Shown here one piece after another: positions 24,084 to 35,540 of a stretch of 64,000 nt of DNA (positions within the stretch are counted from its first letter, which is position 1; every line of letters starts with the position of its first letter). The notes under the pieces are model-generated. The model saw nothing but the letters and a program-made list of their open reading frames with translations, did not search any database and had not been told where the DNA came from. A program made the translations under genes and the position numbers. This stretch comes from Methylomonas sp. EFPC3. Lineage in GTDB: Bacteria; Pseudomonadota; Gammaproteobacteria; Methylococcales; Methylomonadaceae. The stretch spans positions 2,480,001 through 2,544,000 of the forward strand of contig NZ_CP116398.1 in NCBI RefSeq assembly GCF_029643245.1, given 5' to 3'.

Positions 24084-25208
24084 ATGTCAATATTGCGTAC
24101 CGTTTTAATCTCTACCGCACTGCTGCTGACGGCTGAGAACGGTCTAGCCCGCGAAATTAATATTCCAGTGCCGATGGAATACCGCTTTATCAAGAGCGTT
24201 TTGGTTAACCAACTCTACACCGGCCCGGACGAATCGGTGCGGGCCTGGAAAGACGGCAAACAATGCAGCTATCTCGACCTGGACCATCCGCAAATCAGCG
24301 GCGAAAACGGCCAAGTCAAAATCCAGAACAACGTCCAGGCCCGGATCGGCACCGCTTTGGGCGGCAAATGCATGGCGCTGGTGGAGTGGTCCGGTATCCT
24401 GCAGACCTTTCAGCAACCCACCGTGGACGCTTCGGGAAATGTGCTGAGCTTTCCGGTCACCCAGCTCAACGCGTTCGACCGCAACGGCCAGCCGCTGAAT
24501 ATCAGCCAGTTGCAATCCTTGATCAAGAAAGCCGCCGAACCGAAACTGTCCGGTTTGAAAATCGACTTGAACCAGGTCCGGCCGGACATCGCTAAAGCTC
24601 TGGTGCCTTACATCGCCGCCGATCACAGCGAAGACTTGCACGATACGATCAATAGCTTGCGCTTCAACCAAGCCAAGGCCGACGCCAACGGCTTACAAAT
24701 CAATTTGGGCTACACGGCCGACAACCCGAACCCGAACAACGTCAAACCGGCCGCGGTTCTAACCGAAACCGAGTTGAAACAATGGCGCGCGCTTTGGCAA
24801 AACTGGCAGGCTTCCCTGGACAAATCGATCGCCACTGCCCAGTTGGGCGGCAATGCCGAGGACACCCGGGCCAAACTGCACGAAGTGTTGCAAAAAGCCG
24901 GCACGGCCTTCGAGCAAGGCCTGAGCAGCGAATCGGTCGCCGAGAACGACCCGGTGCGCAAGTTTTTCAACAGCTCGTGGGATACCTTCGCCCCGTTGTT
25001 GCGCGACGCCTCCAGCCAATTGCCGGGCGGCGAAAAATTGCGTTACGTCACGCTGATTGCCGCGACCGACTTGATGTACGAATTGGAATCGATCGGCTCA
25101 CCGTTGGGCCTGGAAGTCTCTTCCAACGGTTTGCGCAAACTGGCCCGCTCTTTAATCGCTCAGGAATCGGTTAAAAACAAGGGCAAGAAAGCCAAGCGCA
25201 AAGGCTGA
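24084..25208 (+). CDS. Exported protein of unknown function
   Basis: A 374-aa protein with a signal peptide of about 22 residues ending ENGLA, then a soluble domain with no family I recognise. It contains a single Cys pair region (CSYLDL and GKCMALVEW) and ends in a strongly basic tail (KNKGKKAKRKG). It starts four bases after nadE with a good AAGGAG site, so it is co-transcribed with sucCD–nadE, although no functional link to NAD synthesis is visible. The basic tail might bind nucleic acid, LPS or a membrane surface; that is speculation. Confidence 0.75.
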   Translation: MSILRTVLISTALLLTAENGLAREINIPVPMEYRFIKSVLVNQLYTGPDESVRAWKDGKQCSYLDLDHPQISGENGQVKIQNNVQARIGTALGGKCMALVEWSGILQTFQQPTVDASGNVLSFPVTQLNAFDRNGQPLNISQLQSLIKKAAEPKLSGLKIDLNQVRPDIAKALVPYIAADHSEDLHDTINSLRFNQAKADANGLQINLGYTADNPNPNNVKPAAVLTETELKQWRALWQNWQASLDKSIATAQLGGNAEDTRAKLHEVLQKAGTAFEQGLSSESVAENDPVRKFFNSSWDTFAPLLRDASSQLPGGEKLRYVTLIAATDLMYELESIGSPLGLEVSSNGLRKLARSLIAQESVKNKGKKAKRKG

Positions 25209-25548
25209 TCCGGCGGGTGTCGCCTCCTTGACGCTCGTCAAACCCAGCCTGCAGCCCTGAATAGCGCTTTAGTCTGCCGGGTCGCGCCGACATATCTATC
25301 TCCACGGGATTAAAGCCCGCAAGCTTCCGGCTAGGCTGCGGCGGGCGGGGCATCCCGATCTACGGCACTTGGACAGCGTTTCCGGTGCCGATAGCCTCCG
25401 CCGCTTAACTTGTTTGTTTTAGCGAAAATTTACGTTAAGCTTGCCAGCCAGCCGCACGGAACGCGAGTACCCCAACCCGCAGGGCCGGATCGTCGGTGCC
25501 TCGCCCGACAGCTTTCCGGCGCTCGAGAAACTCCAAAGCGAGCGAAAC
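25209..25548. other. 340-base intergenic region with nested inverted repeats
   Basis: GCGGCGG (25338–25344) can pair with CCGCCGC (25398–25404), enclosing a second hairpin CGGCAC/GTGCCG (25363–25368 and 25385–25390). A T-rich stretch TTGTTTGTTTT follows about five bases after the outer stem. This could be a long terminator of the upstream gene or a structured leader of the next one. I see no match to a known c-di-GMP riboswitch core. Confidence 0.45.
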
Positions 25549-27636
25549 ATGCCAGATCACCTGTTCGACATTCACCCGTACATGCCGCACGGCCAATGTT
25601 ATATGTGGCAAAGCGATCTGCTGATGCTGCACGTGGTGTCCGACGCGCTAATCGTTTTGTCTTATTACTCGATCCCGTTCGCACTGCTCTACATCCTGAA
25701 AAAGCGCCTGGACATTCCGTTCAGCTGGATTTACTGGCTGTTCGGCCTGTTCATCTTTCTATGCGGCACGACCCACTTGCTCAGCATCTGGAACGTCTGG
25801 ATACCGGACTATTGGCTGTCCGGTTTCGTCAAACTGGCGACGGCAATGGTTTCGATCAGCACAGCCGCGTTAGTTTGGCCGTTGGTTCCGAAAATCCTGG
25901 CTATCCCCAGCCAAGCGCAATTGGTCGCGGCAAATTCGGCGCTGGCCAGGGAGATCGAGAATCACAAAAACACCGAACGCGAGCTGCGCAAACTCACCCT
26001 GGCGATGCAATACAGCTCCAGCATGGTGATGGTCACCGATGCGCAAACCCAAATCGAATATTGCAATCCCGCCTTCTACCAGATTACCGGCTACACGGCG
26101 GACGAAGTGATCGGGCGCCGAGCCAATCTGCTGAAGTCAGACCTGACCGCCGAAGACACCTACAAGAATCTTTGGACCACCCTGTTGAGCGGCACCGCCT
26201 GGCACGGCGAATTTTTGAACCGCAAGAAAAACGGCGAACTGTTTTGGTGTCTGGAATCGATCGCCCCGATCCTGGCCGACGACAATTCGATCAGCCATTT
26301 CGTTTCCATCATTCACGACATCAGCGACCGCAAGGATACCGAGGAAATCATTCGCCATATGGCGTACTACGACCCGTTGACCGATCTGGCCAACCGCTCG
26401 CTGTTCAACGAACGGCTCGAACAAGCCATCCACCTGGCCAAGCGCAATCCGCAGATCTTTGCGCTGTTCTACCTGGATCTGGACCGTTTCAAAAACATTA
26501 ACGATACCCTGGGGCATTTGGTCGGCGACAAATTGCTGATCGAAGTCGGGAAACGAATTGCGGCCTGCTTGCGTCAGCAAGAAACCGTCGCTCGCCTCGG
26601 CGGCGACGAATTCGCGCTGATCGGCCTGAACCTGACCAGTCCCGCCGACGCCGGCGATATCGCTCAACGCGTGATCAACACCATCAACGAGCCGTATTTC
26701 ATCGACGACCACCAATTGTTCGTCGGCACCAGCCTCGGTATCAGCGTATATCCGCAGGACGCCACCACCAGCGAACAATTGCTGAAACACGCCGACGACG
26801 CCCTGTATCTGGCAAAACAGCACGGCCGTAACACTTTCGAATTCTACAACGCCGCGTCCAACGCCTTATCCCTGCGCCGACTGAACCTGGAAAACCATTT
26901 ACGCCACGGCCTGGCCCGCAACGAATTCTCGCTGGTCTACCAACCTCAAGTCGATCTGGCCAGCGGCAGCATCATCGGCTCGGAGGTATTGCTGCGCTGG
27001 ACGCCGGAGCTCGGCGCCGTCGGTCCGGACGAATTCATCCCGATCGCCGAGAACAGCGGCTTAATCGTCGAAATCGGCGAATGGGTCATGCGCACGGCCT
27101 GCCGCGACTATATGTGTTCACCGTTGCGGGAGCGCAACCTGCTATTGGCTATCAACCTGTCGGTGCGGCAGTTCAAGAAAACCACACTGGTCGACAGTGT
27201 GGGCGACATTCTGCACGAAACGGGTTTTCCGGCCGAACGCCTGGAACTGGAAATTACCGAGAGCATGCTGGTGGACGACATAGAGACCGCCATCAAGCAC
27301 ATGCAAGACTTGAAAAACCTCGGCATTCGGCTGGCGATCGACGATTTCGGCACGGGCTTTTCGTCACTCAGTTATTTGAAACGGTTTCCGGTGGACACGC
27401 TGAAAATCGGCAAATCTTTCGTCGCCGACATTTACGACAACCAGAACGACGCCTGCATCGTGCGCTCGATCATCGGCTTGGGGCACGGCTTGAACCTGAA
27501 AGTCCAAGCCGAAGGCGTCGAAACCGAGCAACAATTGACCTTATTGAAGCAGAACAACTGCGACCGCGGCCAGGGCTATTTCTTCCACAAGCCGCTGCCG
27601 ATAGACGAATTTCGCCGGCTGTTCGCCCGGTTTTAA
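25549..27636 (+). CDS. Ethylene-receptor-like sensor with PAS, GGDEF and EAL domains
   Basis: A 695-aa membrane protein. Residues about 25–113 form three membrane helices whose sequence resembles the ethylene-binding domain of plant ETR1: Asp 32, Tyr 39, Ile 42, Pro 43, Cys 72 and His 76 sit at exactly the spacing of ETR1 Asp 25, Tyr 32, Ile 35, Pro 36, Cys 65 and His 69 (LCGTTHLLSIW against VLCGATHLINLW). In ETR1 Cys and His hold Cu(I) that binds ethylene. A PAS domain (about 145–262) follows, then GGDEF (GGDEF at 351–355, no RxxD: RQQE at 342–345) and EAL (EVL 479–481, with INLS, EITES, DDFGTG, LKIGKS and EGVETE). It should read ethylene or copper and change c-di-GMP. The TTG at 25441 is rejected as start. 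Confidence 0.9.
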   Translation: MPDHLFDIHPYMPHGQCYMWQSDLLMLHVVSDALIVLSYYSIPFALLYILKKRLDIPFSWIYWLFGLFIFLCGTTHLLSIWNVWIPDYWLSGFVKLATAMVSISTAALVWPLVPKILAIPSQAQLVAANSALAREIENHKNTERELRKLTLAMQYSSSMVMVTDAQTQIEYCNPAFYQITGYTADEVIGRRANLLKSDLTAEDTYKNLWTTLLSGTAWHGEFLNRKKNGELFWCLESIAPILADDNSISHFVSIIHDISDRKDTEEIIRHMAYYDPLTDLANRSLFNERLEQAIHLAKRNPQIFALFYLDLDRFKNINDTLGHLVGDKLLIEVGKRIAACLRQQETVARLGGDEFALIGLNLTSPADAGDIAQRVINTINEPYFIDDHQLFVGTSLGISVYPQDATTSEQLLKHADDALYLAKQHGRNTFEFYNAASNALSLRRLNLENHLRHGLARNEFSLVYQPQVDLASGSIIGSEVLLRWTPELGAVGPDEFIPIAENSGLIVEIGEWVMRTACRDYMCSPLRERNLLLAINLSVRQFKKTTLVDSVGDILHETGFPAERLELEITESMLVDDIETAIKHMQDLKNLGIRLAIDDFGTGFSSLSYLKRFPVDTLKIGKSFVADIYDNQNDACIVRSIIGLGHGLNLKVQAEGVETEQQLTLLKQNNCDRGQGYFFHKPLPIDEFRRLFARF

Positions 27637-27666: not shown

Positions 27667-30600
27667 TTATGCGTTAAGGCAGCGGTAAGGCCCCAGCGGA
27701 TCGGCACCCAAAGTACCGACCAGCGATTTCAAATACTCCGGACCCGACACTTGCTGCAGTTTGCGTTGCGATTGCTGCAACCGTTCCGTCAGCTTCAATT
27801 CGCCAACCACGGCCTGATGACTGTTGTCGCGTAAAAATCCCTCCAGATAGCCGACGTGGCGCCGCCACAAAGCCATTTCCCGCTGCTGTTTGAGTTCCAG
27901 CCGCTCATGGTACCAATCCGCCGCCAGCAGATACTCGCGGCTAAACATGGCCCTGATCTCCGGATGGTGAGCGTCCTTACCTTCGTAATGGCCGAGCGCC
28001 ATGATGTGCAGCAGCGCATACAACGGCGGGCAGGCGTCTTCGATACTGCCGTCGTCCAGATATTGCTGGGCCACCCGCTGCTGGGTCTCGACGATGTTGT
28101 TGACGCCGTCGACGAACACCTCCAGGTCTTGCCGTTCCGGTTGCAGGATCTCGTCGGTGAACACCGCGTAAGGATTGTCGAAGATCTTGCCCATCAGGCT
28201 ATGCACGAAATGGCTGGTGATGCGGTAGCCGAGCCGGCTGGCCATGACCAGTTGGCCTTTGTGCTCGAAATCGGTCAACGGCTCCAGGTAACCGTGTTGC
28301 AACAGGTAATCGGCTTCGCGTTCCTGGCGCGACAAGCGGGCCCAGATTTCCGGAATCAGCAAACTGATGTCGTGGTCGACGCGGGTGTCGGGGCCGATAT
28401 GGCCGGCCGAGCTGGAAAACCCCGGATAGCCGGTCAGGATATAAGACACCAAGGTGTTGTTCAGGTCGGTGATGCCGCGCAAGGCGTTGAACGGGCCCTT
28501 GGTCAGCGCGCCCTCGCTGCCGGCGCCGGTGGTCGACGGCGACTTGCCGGTCAGCGAGCTGATGAAGTCCATGAACAACTCCGGCAACTCCTGGTAATGA
28601 ATCGGGTTGTACACCGCCAGCGGCCGGATTCCGGGTTCGGGCGGATTGTTGCGCCGGCCGGTCAGCACCGCATCCACCGGATGGCACAAGGGCTGGTTCA
28701 GCGGAATCTTTCGGTGCAGGCGGGCCCCGACTTCGGCGACATATTTACGCAGCGGCTTGACCACATCGACCCGGGTTTCCAGGTAGCGCGGATTTTTCGA
28801 GGGTTTGCCATCCACCAAACGCGGATGCGCGGAAGACACCACGAACCCCTTGCCGTCCTGATAGGCATCGCTCAATAGGTTTTGCATCGGCGGGGTAAAT
28901 TTGGAGAAAGTCATCACGTCTTCGACCACCGCGGCCAATTTTGCCGGATCCAGCGGCTCGAAATTAGCCATGAAATTGCCGGGGCCGGACATGTTGGCTT
29001 CGGTCTGCTTGTCGTAGCCGGGGATGATCGCATCGTCCGGCCGCTGAAACAGCCGGTATTCGCAGTTGGTGACCAGTTTCAAGCTCATCTGGTAACCGGC
29101 ATCCGGCAACCACGGCAGTACTGATGCGGTCGGTACCACCACAGAGGCGCTGATGTCGTCTTCCATCTGCACTTTCTCGCAGGCGATGTAGTCCTGGCGT
29201 ACCTTAAACGTACGCCAGCCGCCTTCGGCGTCGAAACCGACCCGCAAATAGGTGGCGACGATCTTTCGTTGGTTCAGTTTCAGCTCGTGGCCCGGCGCGC
29301 CGTCGATGACATCCACGGACAAATGGTCGCGCCAGTGTTCGCCCCACTCCTCGCGGTAAAAGCGTTTGATCAGGAACACCAACGCCAGAATGCTGGGCGG
29401 TATCGACTTCAGCCAGTTGTTGAACTCCGGCGTGTGGTAACTGGACGGCGTCAATAATTTGATCACCGAGCCCAGGCTGCGCTCCGGACTCAAAATCTTG
29501 CGGGCCGGATCGCGATCTTCGTGCTCGTAGCCCGGCAGAAAGCGGCCGGTGTAGTCCTTGTCGAAAATTGCCTGCACCCGGTCCAGGTCGTGCTGCAAAT
29601 CGTCGACGAACAGCGGTCCGTAAATCACCGCATCCTCGATGGATTTGGAAATTTCCGACTTGCCGCCGCCGGACACGGTACACGGCTTGTGGCAAAAGGT
29701 ACCTTCGGCGACGGTACCGATCAACCGCCAGGACGGCGCGCCGGGGTGCTTGCACATCTCGATCTTATAGCCGTTGGGCTGCACGTAAATCTTGCCCGGT
29801 TGCAGCCGGATGCTATGGCTCTGGCCGTTTCTGATCCAGGTGATTTTCTGGTTGTTCAGGCTCATCCGCAGGTCTTGCGGCACGTAAATGATGTCCGGAT
29901 ATTGCTTGTCGATGGCGTAGCCTTCCGGCTGCATGTCCATGATGGCGCCGTAACGATAAACCATGTCGTCGAAATCATAGCCCGGCTCGCGGGTCAGGCT
30001 ACCGATGCCGAATTCGTCGCCGTGGTTGAAGCGGCGGAAGGCCAGCGCGCCGCCGGCATGCTCCTCCTCGGCCAAACCGAACAGATTGGCGGCATAGCTG
30101 ATTTGGGTTTTCACTTCCTTTTTGCAGTAGCCGTAATAGTTGTCGGCGACGAGCGTGACAATGACGCCGGAACGATCGCGGGCGGTCAGTTTAAAGGCCT
30201 GGCCGTCGTTATACAGTTCGGCCGGGTTCTGCCAACACATGCCTTCGGCGCGCTGGCGTTCGCTGGCATCATCCCAGTGCGGCAAGCCCAACTGTTTTTT
30301 GGTGAGCTTGACCAGATGCGGCGCCAGAATCACGCAGCCGCTGTGGCCGGACCAATGTTCGACGTCCAGCGCCGCGTCGCATTCCGGCAAAGCCGGATTG
30401 CCGCCGTTGCCGAAAATACTCTCGACGAAATCGAGGTTGCTGACCAGATTTCCAGGAGCGAAAAAACGGATTTCCATCGATTTTTCGGCTGCAACGCCAG
30501 GGATTTCCGGGCAAACCACCGGCCGCAGCAGCAAGGAGGCGAACATGCGCGCCGGCTGGGGCTGATTGGCGGTAAACGGCAGGGTCAGCAAGTCTGGCGG

Positions 30601-31143
30601 CGGATTCAGAGCTTCGGCCAGCATCAAGGCGAAGGTCAGCTTCGGCACCTGTTTTTTGTCGCCGGGCACCGGCAAACCGCCTTCGGCGATATGAAACGAG
30701 CCTTGGGTGGTACGGCGGTCGCTGGCCGGATTATGCAACACCCCCTGTTTGACGCGGAAACTGGACACGATTTCGGAACGAAATTCATCTTCGCCCATCG
30801 GCAGCGACAATTCGCGCGCTACGCCGTGGCGATCCAGCTCGAAGGTCATGGTCGGCAACGAAGATATCTTGTCCAGACCCACATCGCCTAAATAACGCTC
30901 GAGAAAATCCTGAATCCGACGGTCGGCCGGGTACAACGAGGAACTGGCCAATTGCCGGCTTTTTTCCAGGTAGCTGTTCAATAAATCCTGAGCGGTATCC
31001 ATGAATTGGGCCGACGCGTGATCAATACATGTCGGCTGGCCGCAGGATGCCAGTTTTAAATTGATGTAAAGATGCAATTGGCGTTTCACCGCCTGCTCGT
31101 CTTGACCGGCGGGTCCCAGACCCAGCGCTCTGAGTTTATCCAT
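27667..31143 (-). CDS. Very large protein, candidate PPi-type phosphoenolpyruvate carboxykinase
   Basis: A 1158-aa soluble protein without signal peptide or membrane segment. No standard domain is obvious. Its length fits the roughly 1150-aa pyrophosphate-dependent PEP carboxykinases known from Propionibacterium and Entamoeba, enzymes that interconvert oxaloacetate and PEP with PPi. A glycine-rich loop SGGGKSEISKS at about 491–501 resembles the kinase-1 loop of ATP- and GTP-dependent carboxykinases. The assignment rests on length and this loop from memory and is tentative. PPi-linked glycolysis is common in methanotrophs, which fits. ATG 31143 follows GGGGGAGG closely; an upstream frame exists to 31200. 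Confidence 0.6.
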   Translation of the reverse strand: MDKLRALGLGPAGQDEQAVKRQLHLYINLKLASCGQPTCIDHASAQFMDTAQDLLNSYLEKSRQLASSSLYPADRRIQDFLERYLGDVGLDKISSLPTMTFELDRHGVARELSLPMGEDEFRSEIVSSFRVKQGVLHNPASDRRTTQGSFHIAEGGLPVPGDKKQVPKLTFALMLAEALNPPPDLLTLPFTANQPQPARMFASLLLRPVVCPEIPGVAAEKSMEIRFFAPGNLVSNLDFVESIFGNGGNPALPECDAALDVEHWSGHSGCVILAPHLVKLTKKQLGLPHWDDASERQRAEGMCWQNPAELYNDGQAFKLTARDRSGVIVTLVADNYYGYCKKEVKTQISYAANLFGLAEEEHAGGALAFRRFNHGDEFGIGSLTREPGYDFDDMVYRYGAIMDMQPEGYAIDKQYPDIIYVPQDLRMSLNNQKITWIRNGQSHSIRLQPGKIYVQPNGYKIEMCKHPGAPSWRLIGTVAEGTFCHKPCTVSGGGKSEISKSIEDAVIYGPLFVDDLQHDLDRVQAIFDKDYTGRFLPGYEHEDRDPARKILSPERSLGSVIKLLTPSSYHTPEFNNWLKSIPPSILALVFLIKRFYREEWGEHWRDHLSVDVIDGAPGHELKLNQRKIVATYLRVGFDAEGGWRTFKVRQDYIACEKVQMEDDISASVVVPTASVLPWLPDAGYQMSLKLVTNCEYRLFQRPDDAIIPGYDKQTEANMSGPGNFMANFEPLDPAKLAAVVEDVMTFSKFTPPMQNLLSDAYQDGKGFVVSSAHPRLVDGKPSKNPRYLETRVDVVKPLRKYVAEVGARLHRKIPLNQPLCHPVDAVLTGRRNNPPEPGIRPLAVYNPIHYQELPELFMDFISSLTGKSPSTTGAGSEGALTKGPFNALRGITDLNNTLVSYILTGYPGFSSSAGHIGPDTRVDHDISLLIPEIWARLSRQEREADYLLQHGYLEPLTDFEHKGQLVMASRLGYRITSHFVHSLMGKIFDNPYAVFTDEILQPERQDLEVFVDGVNNIVETQQRVAQQYLDDGSIEDACPPLYALLHIMALGHYEGKDAHHPEIRAMFSREYLLAADWYHERLELKQQREMALWRRHVGYLEGFLRDNSHQAVVGELKLTERLQQSQRKLQQVSGPEYLKSLVGTLGADPLGPYRCLNA

Positions 31144-31486
31144 AGCCTCCCCCTTGGAATTTTTTAATTGATGGTAGCGGCATGATATAGCAAACCCCAA
31201 GCCGAGGTCAGCAAGCTATCGGCGGCCGTCATACACCTCCCGGCAAAATTCCGTATCGGCGGCCTAACCTTGGCCGATTTGGTTCGTAGTCGAATATTTT
31301 GAAGCGCATAAAACTGCGTGATATGCCGACACGATTGAGTTATTTAACTTAGATTAATTATTCCGCCTACGTTCTTCTGCCGGCTGGTCCGCCCGCGGCC
31401 TTGAAATCCGGTACTTATATCAGCATTGCTCAACTGGCAAATTTATTGCTTCAATCTAACTCCATCTGTTCTCACCGGAGCCCGTC
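31144..31486. other. Divergent intergenic region before the FecI-like gene
   Basis: 343 bases separating the giant minus-strand gene from the ECF sigma gene. AT-rich DNA near 31340–31362 probably contains the sigma-gene promoter. A weak Fur-like pattern there is not convincing. I see no hairpin or small ORF worth naming. Confidence 0.4.
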
Positions 31487-32002
31487 TTGTCCGCTGCCGC
31501 CATTCCCGCCGATCAGGTTGCCGCACTATTCCGCGACCATAAGGAAGCGATCGTGCATTTTCTGTTACAGCGCGTCAAATGCCCCGACACGGCACAGGAC
31601 TTGAGCCAGGAAACCTATTTACGCCTGTTGCGGAAAGACGGGCTGGTCCATACCGACAACCTGAGCGGTTACCTGTTCCGCACCGCCGAGCGGCTGGCAA
31701 TCGATTTCGTCCGCCACAACCAGCGCCACAGCGCCCGCCAAGAGCCGTTAGCGGAAGACGCCCTTTGCCCGCTGCCACAACCGGAGGACGCCGCAATCGT
31801 CACTCAGCGTTACCGCCGGGTACTGGAAGCGATCGCCGCTTTGCCGGCGCAATGCCGCCACATATTGTTGCTACGCAAGGTCGACGAACTCGGTTACCGC
31901 GAAATTGCCGATCGGCTGGGCGTATCCGAAAAAACCGTACAGCGCCAGTTGGTCAAAGCGATGCTGCATTGCCACCAATATTGCCTGGACATGTTGCCTT
32001 AG
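31487..32002 (+). CDS. ECF-type RNA polymerase sigma factor (FecI-like)
   Basis: A 171-aa alternative sigma factor with sigma region 2 (about 8–78, including DLSQETYLRLLR and AIDFVRHNQR) and region 4 (about 105–160, with LPAQCRHILLLRKVDELGYREIADRLGVS-type helix-turn-helix). The start is TTG at 31487, supported by CGGAG seven bases upstream. With the FecR and TonB receptor genes that follow it forms a cell-surface signalling trio in which substrate-loaded receptor signals through FecR to release the sigma factor and activate receptor transcription. Confidence 0.9.
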   Translation: MSAAAIPADQVAALFRDHKEAIVHFLLQRVKCPDTAQDLSQETYLRLLRKDGLVHTDNLSGYLFRTAERLAIDFVRHNQRHSARQEPLAEDALCPLPQPEDAAIVTQRYRRVLEAIAALPAQCRHILLLRKVDELGYREIADRLGVSEKTVQRQLVKAMLHCHQYCLDMLP

Positions 32003-32093
32003 CATCCCACGACCGATACGTCTCAACTCTTGTTTAGCAAAACCGGCTAAACTGACTAAGAGTTAACTCCGTTGACTAACCTGGTACCACCCG

Positions 32094-33047
32094 ATGTCAT
32101 CAACCTCGCCCTCGCAACGCACTCTGAGGCAGGCCACGACTTGGTTCGTAGCGCTGCAATCAGAGCATGTCGCCGCCGCAGAACGCCAGCAATTCGAGCA
32201 ATGGCTGGAGGCAAGTGCGGAGCATCGCCGCGCCTTTTGCGAAGTCGAACAAGTTTGGGGCAATCTGGACACGCTGAAGTCGAGAGACTTGGCGGAATTG
32301 AACCAGGCCAGATCGGTTCGCCCGCAACGATGGCGCCATAGCCGGCAACTGTTGTCCGGGATATTACTGGCGACGGTATTCGGCGGAGCATGGCAGGAAT
32401 TCTCCACACCAACCACTACTTACCAAACCGGAATCGGCGAACGCCGCACATTGGCGCTGGCGGACGGCTCGCGCTTGGAAATGAACACCGCTACTCGCCT
32501 GCGAACCCGCATATCCTGGTTACGTCGAGATATCGAACTGGAGCAAGGCGAAGCGGTATTCGAGGTCGCCCACGCGCGCTGGCGTCCGTTTCGGGTCCAT
32601 GCCGGAAAACTGCACATTAGCGATATCGGCACACTGTTCAATGTCCGCCATCAGGATACCGACGGCACCTCCGTTGCGGTGTTGGAAGGGGAAGTGGAAA
32701 TGCGGGTCGGCAGCCGTTGGCTGGGAGAAGCATTGCGCGCCGGATTCAGCCGCCGCCTGGATGCGGACGGGCGCTGGCAAAGCCAGGAAAAAGTCGACGC
32801 CGAACCGGTTTTGGCCTGGACCCGCGGCCAGTTATTATTCGACCACACGCCGCTAGCCGACGTGATCAAAGAACTTGAGCGCTACCATAGCCTTCACTTC
32901 GTGCTCGCCGACGCGTCGCTCGGCCGCCAAACCCTAAGCGGACGTTTCGACGCCACCGATCTCCAGCCGTTTCTACAGGCCGTGCAAAGCATATTGCCGC
33001 TACGGGTACAACGCAGTAAAGACACTATCGTACTACACAAACGCTAA
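32094..33047 (+). CDS. FecR-family anti-sigma / signal-transducing protein
   Basis: A 317-aa inner-membrane protein. An N-terminal cytoplasmic domain with conserved WxxxxxF-type helices (about 1–70, TTWFVALQSEHV) binds the sigma factor, one membrane helix lies at about 85–105, and the periplasmic FecR domain (about 110–210, GIGERRTLALADGSRLEMN) is followed by a C-terminal secretin-like module (FDHTPLADVIKELERYH) that contacts the receptor's signalling domain. It is placed between the ECF sigma gene and the receptor gene, the usual order. Confidence 0.92.
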   Translation: MSSTSPSQRTLRQATTWFVALQSEHVAAAERQQFEQWLEASAEHRRAFCEVEQVWGNLDTLKSRDLAELNQARSVRPQRWRHSRQLLSGILLATVFGGAWQEFSTPTTTYQTGIGERRTLALADGSRLEMNTATRLRTRISWLRRDIELEQGEAVFEVAHARWRPFRVHAGKLHISDIGTLFNVRHQDTDGTSVAVLEGEVEMRVGSRWLGEALRAGFSRRLDADGRWQSQEKVDAEPVLAWTRGQLLFDHTPLADVIKELERYHSLHFVLADASLGRQTLSGRFDATDLQPFLQAVQSILPLRVQRSKDTIVLHKR

Positions 33048-33179
33048 GCGCAGCCGCTACGCCGAATTCCCCCGAACCAATTTTTTTCGGCAAAACTGTC
33101 CAGTTTCCTTGTTCTGCTTCGTTATGAACGGTATGCCCAGGCACAGGTCTGGCCAACCTTCATAAATCAGGAGATGAAA

Positions 33180-35540
33180 ATGACTCTATCAAGCAGTCCA
33201 ACTGACCGGCAGCGCAGCGGACGCCGCATCGTTTTGCCGATGCTGGCCCTGTCTCTGGCAATCGCCAGCAATACCTGGGCCGGCGAAGCCGTATCGAGCA
33301 AACTCGATCTGCCGGCCCAAAGCCTCGCCGCCAGCCTGGACAGTTTGGCAAAGACCAGCGGCGCCAAATTGATCTACGCCGACTCGATCGTCAACGGCAT
33401 TCAAGCGGATGCGCTGCGCGGCGAATTCACCGTACAGCAAGCGCTGGACCGGTTGCTGCATAAACACGGGCTGCAGTCGGAGATTGTCGGCGGCGTGATT
33501 ACCATCAAGAAGGCCCCGCCGGTGCCGAAACCGCAAGCCATCCGCGACGATTCGATCATCTCGCTCGGCGAAGTTACGGTCAACGAACAGCCGGACAACG
33601 GCAAATTGACTAGCAAGGACATCGCGACATCAGTCGACATCCTCTATGCCGACAAGATCGCCGACCAGAACGTATTGACCGCATTCGACTTAATGCATCG
33701 GATGCCGGGCATCCAAATCACCCAATTCGGCCAAGGCACCACCACCGGCAAATTTTCGTTCCGCGGCTTCAACGGCGAAGGCAGGATCAACGCGGTGAAA
33801 TTACTGATCGACGGCATTCCCAGCAACTCGAACGACGGCAACATGCCTTATTTGGATGCCTTGTTTCCGCTGGATATCGAATCGATTGAGGTGGTGCGGG
33901 GCACCAACGATCCGCGTTACGGCCTGCATAACGTTGCCGGTAACGTCAACATGACCACCACCACCGGCGGCAATTACGTCAAAGGCCGGATGAGTTACGG
34001 CAGTTTCGACACCCACGAAATCCAATCCGGTTTAGGTTACGAAAAGGACGGCTTTTCTCAGAACTACCAGATTTCGTATCGCGCCAGCGACAGCTATCGC
34101 GATCGTAGCGATTCGGACAAGAACAGCTTTTCCGGCAAGTGGTTTTACGCACCAACCGATAAATATAAAGCCGGTTTAATCGCCCGTTGGAGCGAGGCCG
34201 GCGCGCAAGAGCCGGGCTATCTGACTTATCAACAGCAATTAGCCAGTACCACACAGTCCACACCGCACAACCCGCTGGATTACAGCAAGCGCACGATAGG
34301 CCAGGTTAGCGCCCATCTCGACGTCAACTTGAGCGAAACTTTGTTCTGGTCGAACAAGGCGTACGGCAATATTTTCGATGATCAGCGCCTGGTGCGTTTT
34401 CACCCGGCGTTTTCCCAGGTAAAACGGGATCGCGACGAAGTGCAGTACGGTGCGATAACCTCGCTGACTTATCACCCGCAAATCAGCTGGCTGGACGATT
34501 TCTCGATTGAAACCGGCTTTGATTTCCAACAACAGGAAAACCGATACAAACAGTACCGAACCACCAACGGCATACCCAACCCGAGCAGTGCGACCAACAT
34601 CCGCAACGACGAGCATTGGACGTTTCTGAATTACGGTGGTTACATTCAGGCGGTAATCAAGCCCACCCGATGGCTGAAACTGACGCCCGGCTATCGCGCC
34701 GACGTCATTGACGGCAACTTTTTCAGCTACCGTCCCGGCGCTACCTTTGGCGCCTATCCGATCAACGATTATGGCACCATCTCACAACCCAAAATAGGCG
34801 CGGTAATCACGCCAATCGAGGGTTACAGTCTGTATGGCAACTGGGGCCGAACCTTCCAAGTCGGACTTGGGCAAGCCACCTTTATCGGGCGCAACCAATC
34901 AAATACCGGTCCTTCTCTGAACGACGGCTGGGAAGTCGGCTTTAAACTGCAACCGGTCGACTGGGCGGAAGGCCGGGTAGCCTACTGGATGCAGGATGCC
35001 AGCAACGAGATCAGCCGTAATCTGGCCAGTGCTGATTCGACCTTGATTGGTCCCACCAAACGCCAGGGCGTCGACATCGAAATCAAGGTTTATCCGACCG
35101 ATCGTTTTGGCATCTGGGCGGCCTATTCCTTGCAGGAAGCCAAGGTAACCAACCCACCGGCGGTTGTCACCAATACCATGGAATACACGGTCGGCAATCA
35201 GGTCGTGAATACGCCGAATTATCTGTTTTCGGCCGGCATCGATTACCAAGTCACCGAACAACTGCGTTCATCGCTATGGACCAGCGGCCAAGGCAACTAC
35301 TTTGTGGATCAAGCCAACGACGCCGGTAAACATGGCGAATACGCCTTATTGAATCTGGACTTAGGCTATCAGGTAACCAAGGAAGTCGAATTGCAATTCC
35401 AGGCCAAAAATCTGACTGACGCCCAGCGCGAATACCTGTGGTATGACGAAAGTTATGGCGCTGGCCAACGTTATGCCTTTTACTCACCGGGTGACGGTCG
35501 CGCTTTCTACGGCGCAGTCAATGTCAAGTTCGACTACTAA
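33180..35540 (+). CDS. TonB-dependent siderophore-type receptor with signalling (STN) domain
   Basis: A 786-aa outer-membrane transporter. Signal peptide ends about NTWA, residues about 40–110 form the secretin/TonB N-terminal signalling domain (SLAASLDSLAKTSGAKLIYADS), then a TonB-box-like ISLGEVTVNE, a plug with RMPGIQITQFG and NDPRYGLHNVAGNVNM, and a 22-strand-type barrel ending VKFDY. The STN domain and the upstream FecI/FecR pair show it is a transducer-type receptor. Cargo is unknown; a ferric siderophore is likeliest, and a metallophore such as methanobactin is possible. The second ATG (33180) is chosen because GGAG sits six bases upstream; ATG 33174 abuts it. Confidence 0.92.
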   Translation: MTLSSSPTDRQRSGRRIVLPMLALSLAIASNTWAGEAVSSKLDLPAQSLAASLDSLAKTSGAKLIYADSIVNGIQADALRGEFTVQQALDRLLHKHGLQSEIVGGVITIKKAPPVPKPQAIRDDSIISLGEVTVNEQPDNGKLTSKDIATSVDILYADKIADQNVLTAFDLMHRMPGIQITQFGQGTTTGKFSFRGFNGEGRINAVKLLIDGIPSNSNDGNMPYLDALFPLDIESIEVVRGTNDPRYGLHNVAGNVNMTTTTGGNYVKGRMSYGSFDTHEIQSGLGYEKDGFSQNYQISYRASDSYRDRSDSDKNSFSGKWFYAPTDKYKAGLIARWSEAGAQEPGYLTYQQQLASTTQSTPHNPLDYSKRTIGQVSAHLDVNLSETLFWSNKAYGNIFDDQRLVRFHPAFSQVKRDRDEVQYGAITSLTYHPQISWLDDFSIETGFDFQQQENRYKQYRTTNGIPNPSSATNIRNDEHWTFLNYGGYIQAVIKPTRWLKLTPGYRADVIDGNFFSYRPGATFGAYPINDYGTISQPKIGAVITPIEGYSLYGNWGRTFQVGLGQATFIGRNQSNTGPSLNDGWEVGFKLQPVDWAEGRVAYWMQDASNEISRNLASADSTLIGPTKRQGVDIEIKVYPTDRFGIWAAYSLQEAKVTNPPAVVTNTMEYTVGNQVVNTPNYLFSAGIDYQVTEQLRSSLWTSGQGNYFVDQANDAGKHGEYALLNLDLGYQVTKEVELQFQAKNLTDAQREYLWYDESYGAGQRYAFYSPGDGRAFYGAVNVKFDY

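Follow-up and report, generated by a model that had tools for sequence, protein, structure and literature searches.

A putative ethylene-receptor-type membrane domain joined to a c-di-GMP enzyme in Methylomonas and other methane oxidizers

SynEtr1 (slr1212/UirS) of Synechocystis and AzoEtr1 of Azospirillum brasilense resemble the protein reported here in being bacterial and in carrying a three-helix N-terminal ethylene-binding domain. According to the accessible text, both have a published link to biofilm or surface behavior; their output, however, is a histidine kinase with a response regulator, whereas here a c-di-GMP enzyme lies in the same chain. A gas sensor and a GGDEF-EAL output do share one chain in the DosP-type phosphodiesterases, whose sensor is a heme PAS located in the cytosol, in contrast to the putative membrane sensor of Cu(I)/ethylene type described below. 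In the accessible parts of the respective papers, biofilm falls with ethylene in Azospirillum (PMC11819568) and rises with it in Synechocystis (PMC6682694). The plant receptors are described there with GAF and kinase-type outputs and in the ER membrane. The same partial sources give Cys65 and His69 as the Cu(I) ligands of ETR1 (PMC9603746, PMC12744750), mention an Asp that is important for affinity and forms a salt bridge to a Lys, residue numbers not being given (PMC13012798), and put the number of binding-essential residues at seven (PMC11819568). Non-plant ethylene receptors in the open literature, as far as its text is accessible (Synechocystis, Azospirillum, and a mushroom), signal through histidine kinases. 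In that literature we found no description of an ETR1_N domain fused to GGDEF or EAL (subscription reviews may mention one) and no binding measurement on a c-di-GMP-type ETR1_N protein, and open papers containing both "ethylene-binding domain" and GGDEF place the two, in their accessible passages, in separate cyanobacterial proteins.

The window analyzed here is a 64,000-nucleotide stretch of the Methylomonas sp. EFPC3 genome. The original prediction placed an ETR1-like domain fused to a c-di-GMP enzyme at 25549-27636, and both the coordinates and the architecture proved correct: a single open frame runs on the plus strand from ATG 25549 to the stop at 27636 (695 residues), and Pfam finds ETR1_N, PAS, GGDEF, and EAL in it. 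The frame stays open 5' to TTG 25441, and relatives favor a start near 25549. The features are as follows.

25549-27636, plus strand: whole gene, EBD-PAS-GGDEF-EAL, 695 aa (ORF, Pfam, and neighbors common to 8 of 9 related loci)
25585-25608, plus strand: PHGxCxxW motif, residues 13-20, probably on the extracytoplasmic side of helix 1 (alignment A1, 189-domain set)
25618-25905, plus strand: ETR1_N ethylene/Cu(I)-binding domain, residues 24-119 (Pfam PF25487, E 7.7e-38; AF2 models)
25642-25644, plus strand: Asp32, equivalent to ETR1 Asp25 (alignment, 189-domain set)
25762-25764, plus strand: Cys72, equivalent to ETR1 Cys65, putative Cu(I) ligand (alignment; role from the two ligand papers cited above)
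25774-25776, plus strand: His76, equivalent to ETR1 His69, putative Cu(I) ligand (alignment; role from the same two papers)
25831-25833, plus strand: Lys95, equivalent to ETR1 Lys91 (alignment; role at that number presumed)
25912-26010, plus strand: predicted signaling helix, residues 122-154, joining the membrane domain and PAS (AF2 full-length model)
26023-26328, plus strand: PAS, residues 159-260 (Pfam)
26362-26832, plus strand: GGDEF, residues 272-428 (Pfam; GGDEF motif intact at 351-355; inhibitory site RQQE)
26893-27594, plus strand: EAL, residues 449-682 (Pfam; EVLLRW, AINLS, EITES, DDFGTG, LKIGKS, and EGVE present)

The profile search that had been proposed as a check gave a significant ETR1_N match, at 129.1 bits against a curated cutoff of 27. 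No HisKA or HATPase domain was matched by Pfam in the 695-residue protein, which has GGDEF and EAL instead. Three N-terminal membrane helices were predicted by AF2 in both models, i.e., as three long helices for the domain alone (pLDDT 90, pTM 0.77) and, at full length, as helices 22-52, 59-84, and 88-117 followed by a fourth, 122-154, that reaches the PAS domain (pLDDT 86, pTM 0.52). A sequence look-up of residues 1-149 among solved structures gave no match at E up to 1, and a Foldseek comparison of the domain model with the PDB gave nothing at E ≤0.001. We know of no solved ETR1 membrane domain, and these empty look-ups are no argument against the ETR1_N assignment.

Next to Arabidopsis ETR1 residues 1-133 (a sequence entered by hand, its own ETR1_N score of 116.5 bits being the sole check), the protein shows 33% identity over 123 columns, with a BLASTP E of 2e-21 in this two-sequence comparison; judged by this alignment, the likeness is far past chance. 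The original prediction had named six residues at ETR1 spacing, and the alignment with the hand-entered sequence bears this out, since Asp32, Tyr39, Ile42, Pro43, Cys72, and His76 fall on ETR1 Asp25, Tyr32, Ile35, Pro36, Cys65, and His69. In addition, Ile69 corresponds to Ile62 and Lys95 to Lys91, so that the domain has the same Asp, Tyr, Ile, Pro, Ile, Cys, His, and Lys equivalents as the plant family. We take Asp25 and Lys91 to be the salt-bridge pair of ETR1, and our list of the seven residues needed for ethylene binding is likewise an assumption; against the hand-entered sequence, the equivalents of the Cu(I) ligands and of the other binding residues are all present.

These positions are kept well beyond this one protein. 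Among 189 distinct domains (208 before identical ones were removed; the set leaves aside short frames as well as truncated ones that lack an output), Cys is kept in 187, His in 186, and Asp in 184. The 62 distinct c-di-GMP-type domains have Cys and His in 62/62, Asp in 60/62, and Lys in 58/62, together with the equivalents of Tyr32 (61/62), Ile35 (62/62), Ile62 (62/62), and Pro36 (52/62), and the kinase-type domains have Cys in 113/115 and His in 112/115. The bacterial domains also share an element that the hand-entered Arabidopsis sequence does not have: the PHGxCxxW motif just ahead of helix 1 is nearly invariant (Pro in 183, His in 180, Cys in 185, and Trp in 184 of the 189), and it is present in all 24 rows of alignment A1, from which locus L134, having no such motif, was left out. 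Going by its predicted position, the motif puts an additional His and Cys beside the membrane, a possible extra Cu(I) or redox site.

Such conservation of metal-binding residues, along with the extra His/Cys motif, would also fit a domain that reports Cu(I) status, a quantity relevant to an organism with pMMO, with ethylene binding being incidental. We regard this as unlikely: the non-ligand Tyr, Ile, and Ile equivalents are kept almost without exception and Pro in most c-di-GMP-type domains, and the accessible text describes both characterized bacterial members, AzoEtr1 and SynEtr1, as receptors for ethylene. The natural signal might instead be another small Cu(I) ligand, such as propylene, acetylene, carbon monoxide, or an oxidation by-product, given that Cu(I) sites in general bind alkenes, alkynes, and CO and that the domain is enriched among hydrocarbon oxidizers. 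This appears quite unlikely to us, as the residues required for ethylene binding by ETR1 are conserved in the window domain and no sequence feature that we noticed points elsewhere.

ETR1_N could also be nothing but a membrane anchor or dimerizer, with sensing left to the PAS domain, which lies between ETR1_N and the output and whose number differs among relatives while GGDEF-EAL stays constant. The near-universal Cys, His, and Asp are unexpected for an anchor, however, and selection speaks against it as well. Comparison of the window gene with six orthologues gave dN/dS values of 0.06-0.11 for the membrane domain, 0.04-0.15 for GGDEF, and 0.10-0.31 for EAL (saturated values were left undefined, so that sensor and EAL, and sensor and GGDEF, are comparable in five pairs). 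The membrane domain lies below EAL in 5/5 of these comparisons, and GGDEF lies below the sensor in 2/5. The membrane domain is thus under strong purifying selection and is more constrained than EAL, and we consider a pure anchor very improbable.

The PAS-GGDEF-EAL output of the original prediction was found in full, and the GGDEF and EAL motifs that we take to be catalytic are intact, with RQQE rather than RxxD at the inhibitory site. Across 68 fusions (seven evident duplicates were taken out, and some overlap may persist), the GGDEF motif is intact in 68/68, and an EAL motif is found in 65/68, loop 6 in 63/68, and EGVE in 60/68. The five highest-ranking named curated relatives (DibA, PRK10060, Tlr1612, DosP, and GepA, all under their cutoffs) are phosphodiesterases and the sixth is a cyclase; because of these five, the protein is predicted to be likelier a net c-di-GMP phosphodiesterase than a cyclase. 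Net synthesis may nevertheless occur, given that the GGDEF domain retains its motif and is more constrained than the sensor in the two comparisons noted above. Window residues 77-688 align to positions 10-621 of the DibA model (NF045675) at 610.9 bits; the equivalog threshold of 980 is missed, which rules out that the protein is simply DibA, and the alignment begins inside the membrane domain, so the full ETR1_N is not included. Two further genes, L106:2574-4658 (minus strand) and L214:5962-8196 (plus strand), encode ETR1_N and GGDEF with no EAL detected, and therefore some members may be pure cyclases.

We propose, with a probability of roughly 60%, that the protein is a membrane receptor of the Cu(I)/ethylene type acting through PAS on a c-di-GMP enzyme, most likely a phosphodiesterase. 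Within the three helices, Cu(I) would sit between Cys72 and His76, Asp32 and Lys95 being nearby, and this site would take up ethylene or a small unsaturated gas resembling it. Occupancy of the site would move helix 3 and the signaling helix (residues 122-154), and a PAS dimer would relay the shift so as to reset the GGDEF-EAL enzyme, presumably a phosphodiesterase tuned by GTP bound to GGDEF. Cellular c-di-GMP would then most likely be lowered in one receptor state, and the change would bear on the choice between surface and free life. Since the biofilm responses of Azospirillum and Synechocystis are opposite, the response of the window protein could take either sign.

With regard to the host, the window domain is 100% identical to one on a Methylomonas koyamae SM2 contig (L168). 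The window genome, a single 4.44-Mb contig, contains two genes of PF02461, which we read as the pmoA-type family, in agreement with the methanotroph host that had been predicted. The surroundings of the gene were compared across ten loci of the window subtype, the window's own included. Gene neighbors are the same in 8 of the 9 other loci (in L043 the gene sits elsewhere) and comprise sucCD and nadE, named from translations read by eye, a 374-residue protein, and a 1177-residue protein on the opposite strand. An operon partner for the receptor gene was sought among these conserved flanks and none was found; no nameable neighbor suggests an ethylene role, two conserved neighbors having no family match, and the surroundings, being shared by 8/9 loci, therefore carry no information on the ligand. 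The 374-residue protein (24084-25208, plus strand), conserved beside the receptor gene, has a signal-peptide-like start by eye and no Pfam or NCBIfam match; the 1177-residue protein (27667-31200, minus strand), also with no match in Pfam or NCBIfam, shows 83-97% identity across seven loci from other species of the genus. Farther downstream, 31487-35540 (plus strand) holds a trio of ECF sigma factor, FecR, and STN-type TonB receptor, of the metal- or siderophore-uptake type. A search for RNA families at gathering scores across the window returned one tRNA and no riboswitch, and a promoter and terminator scan of 25150-25600 returned no site.

To place the fusion among its relatives, we recorded ETR1_N across nested sets of genomes. 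The domain occurs in 27/37 genomes of the genus and in 130/251 of the order (Methylococcales) at E ≤0.001, 126 of them above the cutoff. By comparison, the class sample has 12/369 genomes above the cutoff, three of which belong to the order, and the phylum sample has 28/398, the window genome among them; the odds ratio for the order versus the rest of the class is about 40, with the remainder approximated as 365. No ETR1_N match was obtained in 14 control genomes.

To classify outputs, we used small profiles whose seeds were taken from Pfam coordinates, and Pfam itself was run on ten representatives. All 54 ETR1_N proteins of the genus comprise 35 with GGDEF and EAL, 18 kinases, and one truncated by the end of its contig, and at least one GGDEF-EAL fusion is present in 25/37 genus genomes. 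The original prediction had set this protein apart from the described receptors in which the fold feeds a histidine kinase. It is right that no kinase is found here, but the architecture is not unique, the fusion being common in the genus. In the rest of the order, 40 matches sampled as every third of the ~119 listed gave 15 GGDEF-EAL proteins, one with GGDEF only, and 24 kinases; L100 also shows a partial second frame, which belongs to the L099 gene and was left uncounted. One of the 15 (L126), an ETR1_N-GGDEF-EAL gene from another genus, carries an in-frame TAG where its domain begins (L126:886-891). Among matches from beyond the order in the class and phylum samples, 36 of 37 distinct above-cutoff ones (a 26-position fragment in G869 was left out) yielded no c-di-GMP output, 29 kinases, and seven proteins without a call, in which Pfam found two HWE kinases and no GGDEF or EAL. 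Counted per match, c-di-GMP outputs amount to 16/40 in the order versus 0/36 outside it (Fisher p 6e-6, kinship ignored), and per genus code, read by eye, to 10/16 versus 0/23 (p 1e-5); both tests use raw counts, weighted neither by relatedness nor by the number of c-di-GMP enzymes per genome. Four hand-picked loci (L164-L167, two of each kind) were excluded from the counts. The fusion may have arisen once or several times: on a tree of the 189 domains, the c-di-GMP label needs 15 changes, of which the starred branches force only 3, at the low resolution of 116 columns.

Contigs with species names gave a similar picture, within the best 80 of 104 loci; the ranking followed resemblance to the window domain, and the set is hence biased. 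GGDEF is present in 24 of these 80, and 22 of the 24 lie on contigs named for methane oxidizers (Methylomonas, Methylobacter, Methylovulum, Methylococcaceae, Crenothrix, and one Methylocapsa MAG, the last with ETR1_N and GGDEF and no EAL by Pfam); the remaining two, likewise run through Pfam, come from Noviherbaspirillum autotrophicum and from a Deltaproteobacteria MAG. In the same best 80, kinase-type receptors are also found on methanotroph-named contigs (L187, L210, and L243). Three named contigs with GGDEF fusions thus lie beyond the order, two of them from genomes without pmoA, as PF02461 has no match in the Noviherbaspirillum and Deltaproteobacteria genomes and two in that of Methylocapsa. 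These two exceptions rule out that the fusion is exclusive to methanotrophs, and the named-contig counts therefore make it typical of, yet not exclusive to, methane oxidizers.

The link to methane oxidation comes out stronger than the original prediction could show, in that both the domain and its fusion to c-di-GMP enzymes cluster in the order of the window; within the order, however, the association with pmoA is weak. ETR1_N occurs there in 114/207 pmoA-positive versus 16/44 pmoA-negative genomes (Fisher p 0.03; the lists were matched by eye, and incomplete MAGs blur the comparison). Five pmoA-bearing families of the order (f2, f3, f6, f7, and f8) have no ETR1_N at all, and a requirement of pMMO for the domain is ruled out by the 93/207 pmoA-positive order genomes without a match. 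In the alphaproteobacterial family of Methylocapsa, ETR1_N is found in 7/11 pmoA-positive genomes versus 21/138 others (Fisher p 8e-4, or 0.003 without Methylocapsa, the genome that prompted the test), an over-representation in pMMO carriers that also counts toward the copper-sensor explanation considered above. Nine loci from those seven genomes comprise five kinases with a receiver, one kinase, one GGDEF protein, and two that are short or cut; two further matches in these genomes have no locus.

A single other ETR1_N match exists in the window genome, a hybrid kinase of EBD-HisKA-HATPase-REC architecture by Pfam, and it is followed by a gene of the c-di-GMP phosphodiesterase type, as predicted from Pfam domains:

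L073 9354-11126 (genome 1302353-1304125): second ETR1_N hybrid kinase (Pfam)
L073 11150-12148, starting 23 bases downstream of the kinase: REC-HD-GYP response regulator (HD_5 2e-36, Response_reg 3e-29)
L073 9354-12148 (genome 1302353-1305147): the pair of kinase and REC-HD-GYP

This pair recurs in 4/4 genus loci with a whole kinase and a visible next gene, two of the genomes being of the same species (a fifth locus of the hybrid kinase, L085, is cut). More broadly, for 13/121 kinase-type receptors a c-di-GMP gene on the same strand lies no more than 400 bases away, a raw count over overlapping sets. At L230, L213, L215, L226, L233, L121, L132, L152, and L154, the gene of a kinase-type receptor has a GGDEF or EAL gene next to it on the same strand, and these loci include cyanobacteria. 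A diguanylate-cyclase gene alongside a cyanobacterial ethylene receptor is also described in the accessible text of PMC6682694.

Collectively, these sequence-level results suggest that gammaproteobacterial methane oxidizers regulate their life on surfaces by sensing ethylene or a gas like it. A more specific and tentative version, which we think possible but would not bet on, is that gammaproteobacterial methanotrophs have made an ethylene receptor into a dedicated c-di-GMP branch, that both receptors of this genome feed breakdown, and that ethylene makes methane oxidizers disperse from, or settle on, surfaces; the breakdown routes may then be the EAL fusion and the kinase paired with HD-GYP. 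Ethylene, which is released by plants and soils, is a competing substrate of methane monooxygenase, and methane oxidizers, which form a main biological sink for methane in soils and wetlands, also oxidize it. If the proposed receptor is real, a single-chain ethylene-to-c-di-GMP receptor would recur in methane consumers, and a plant hormone would be tied to the lifestyle of that sink.
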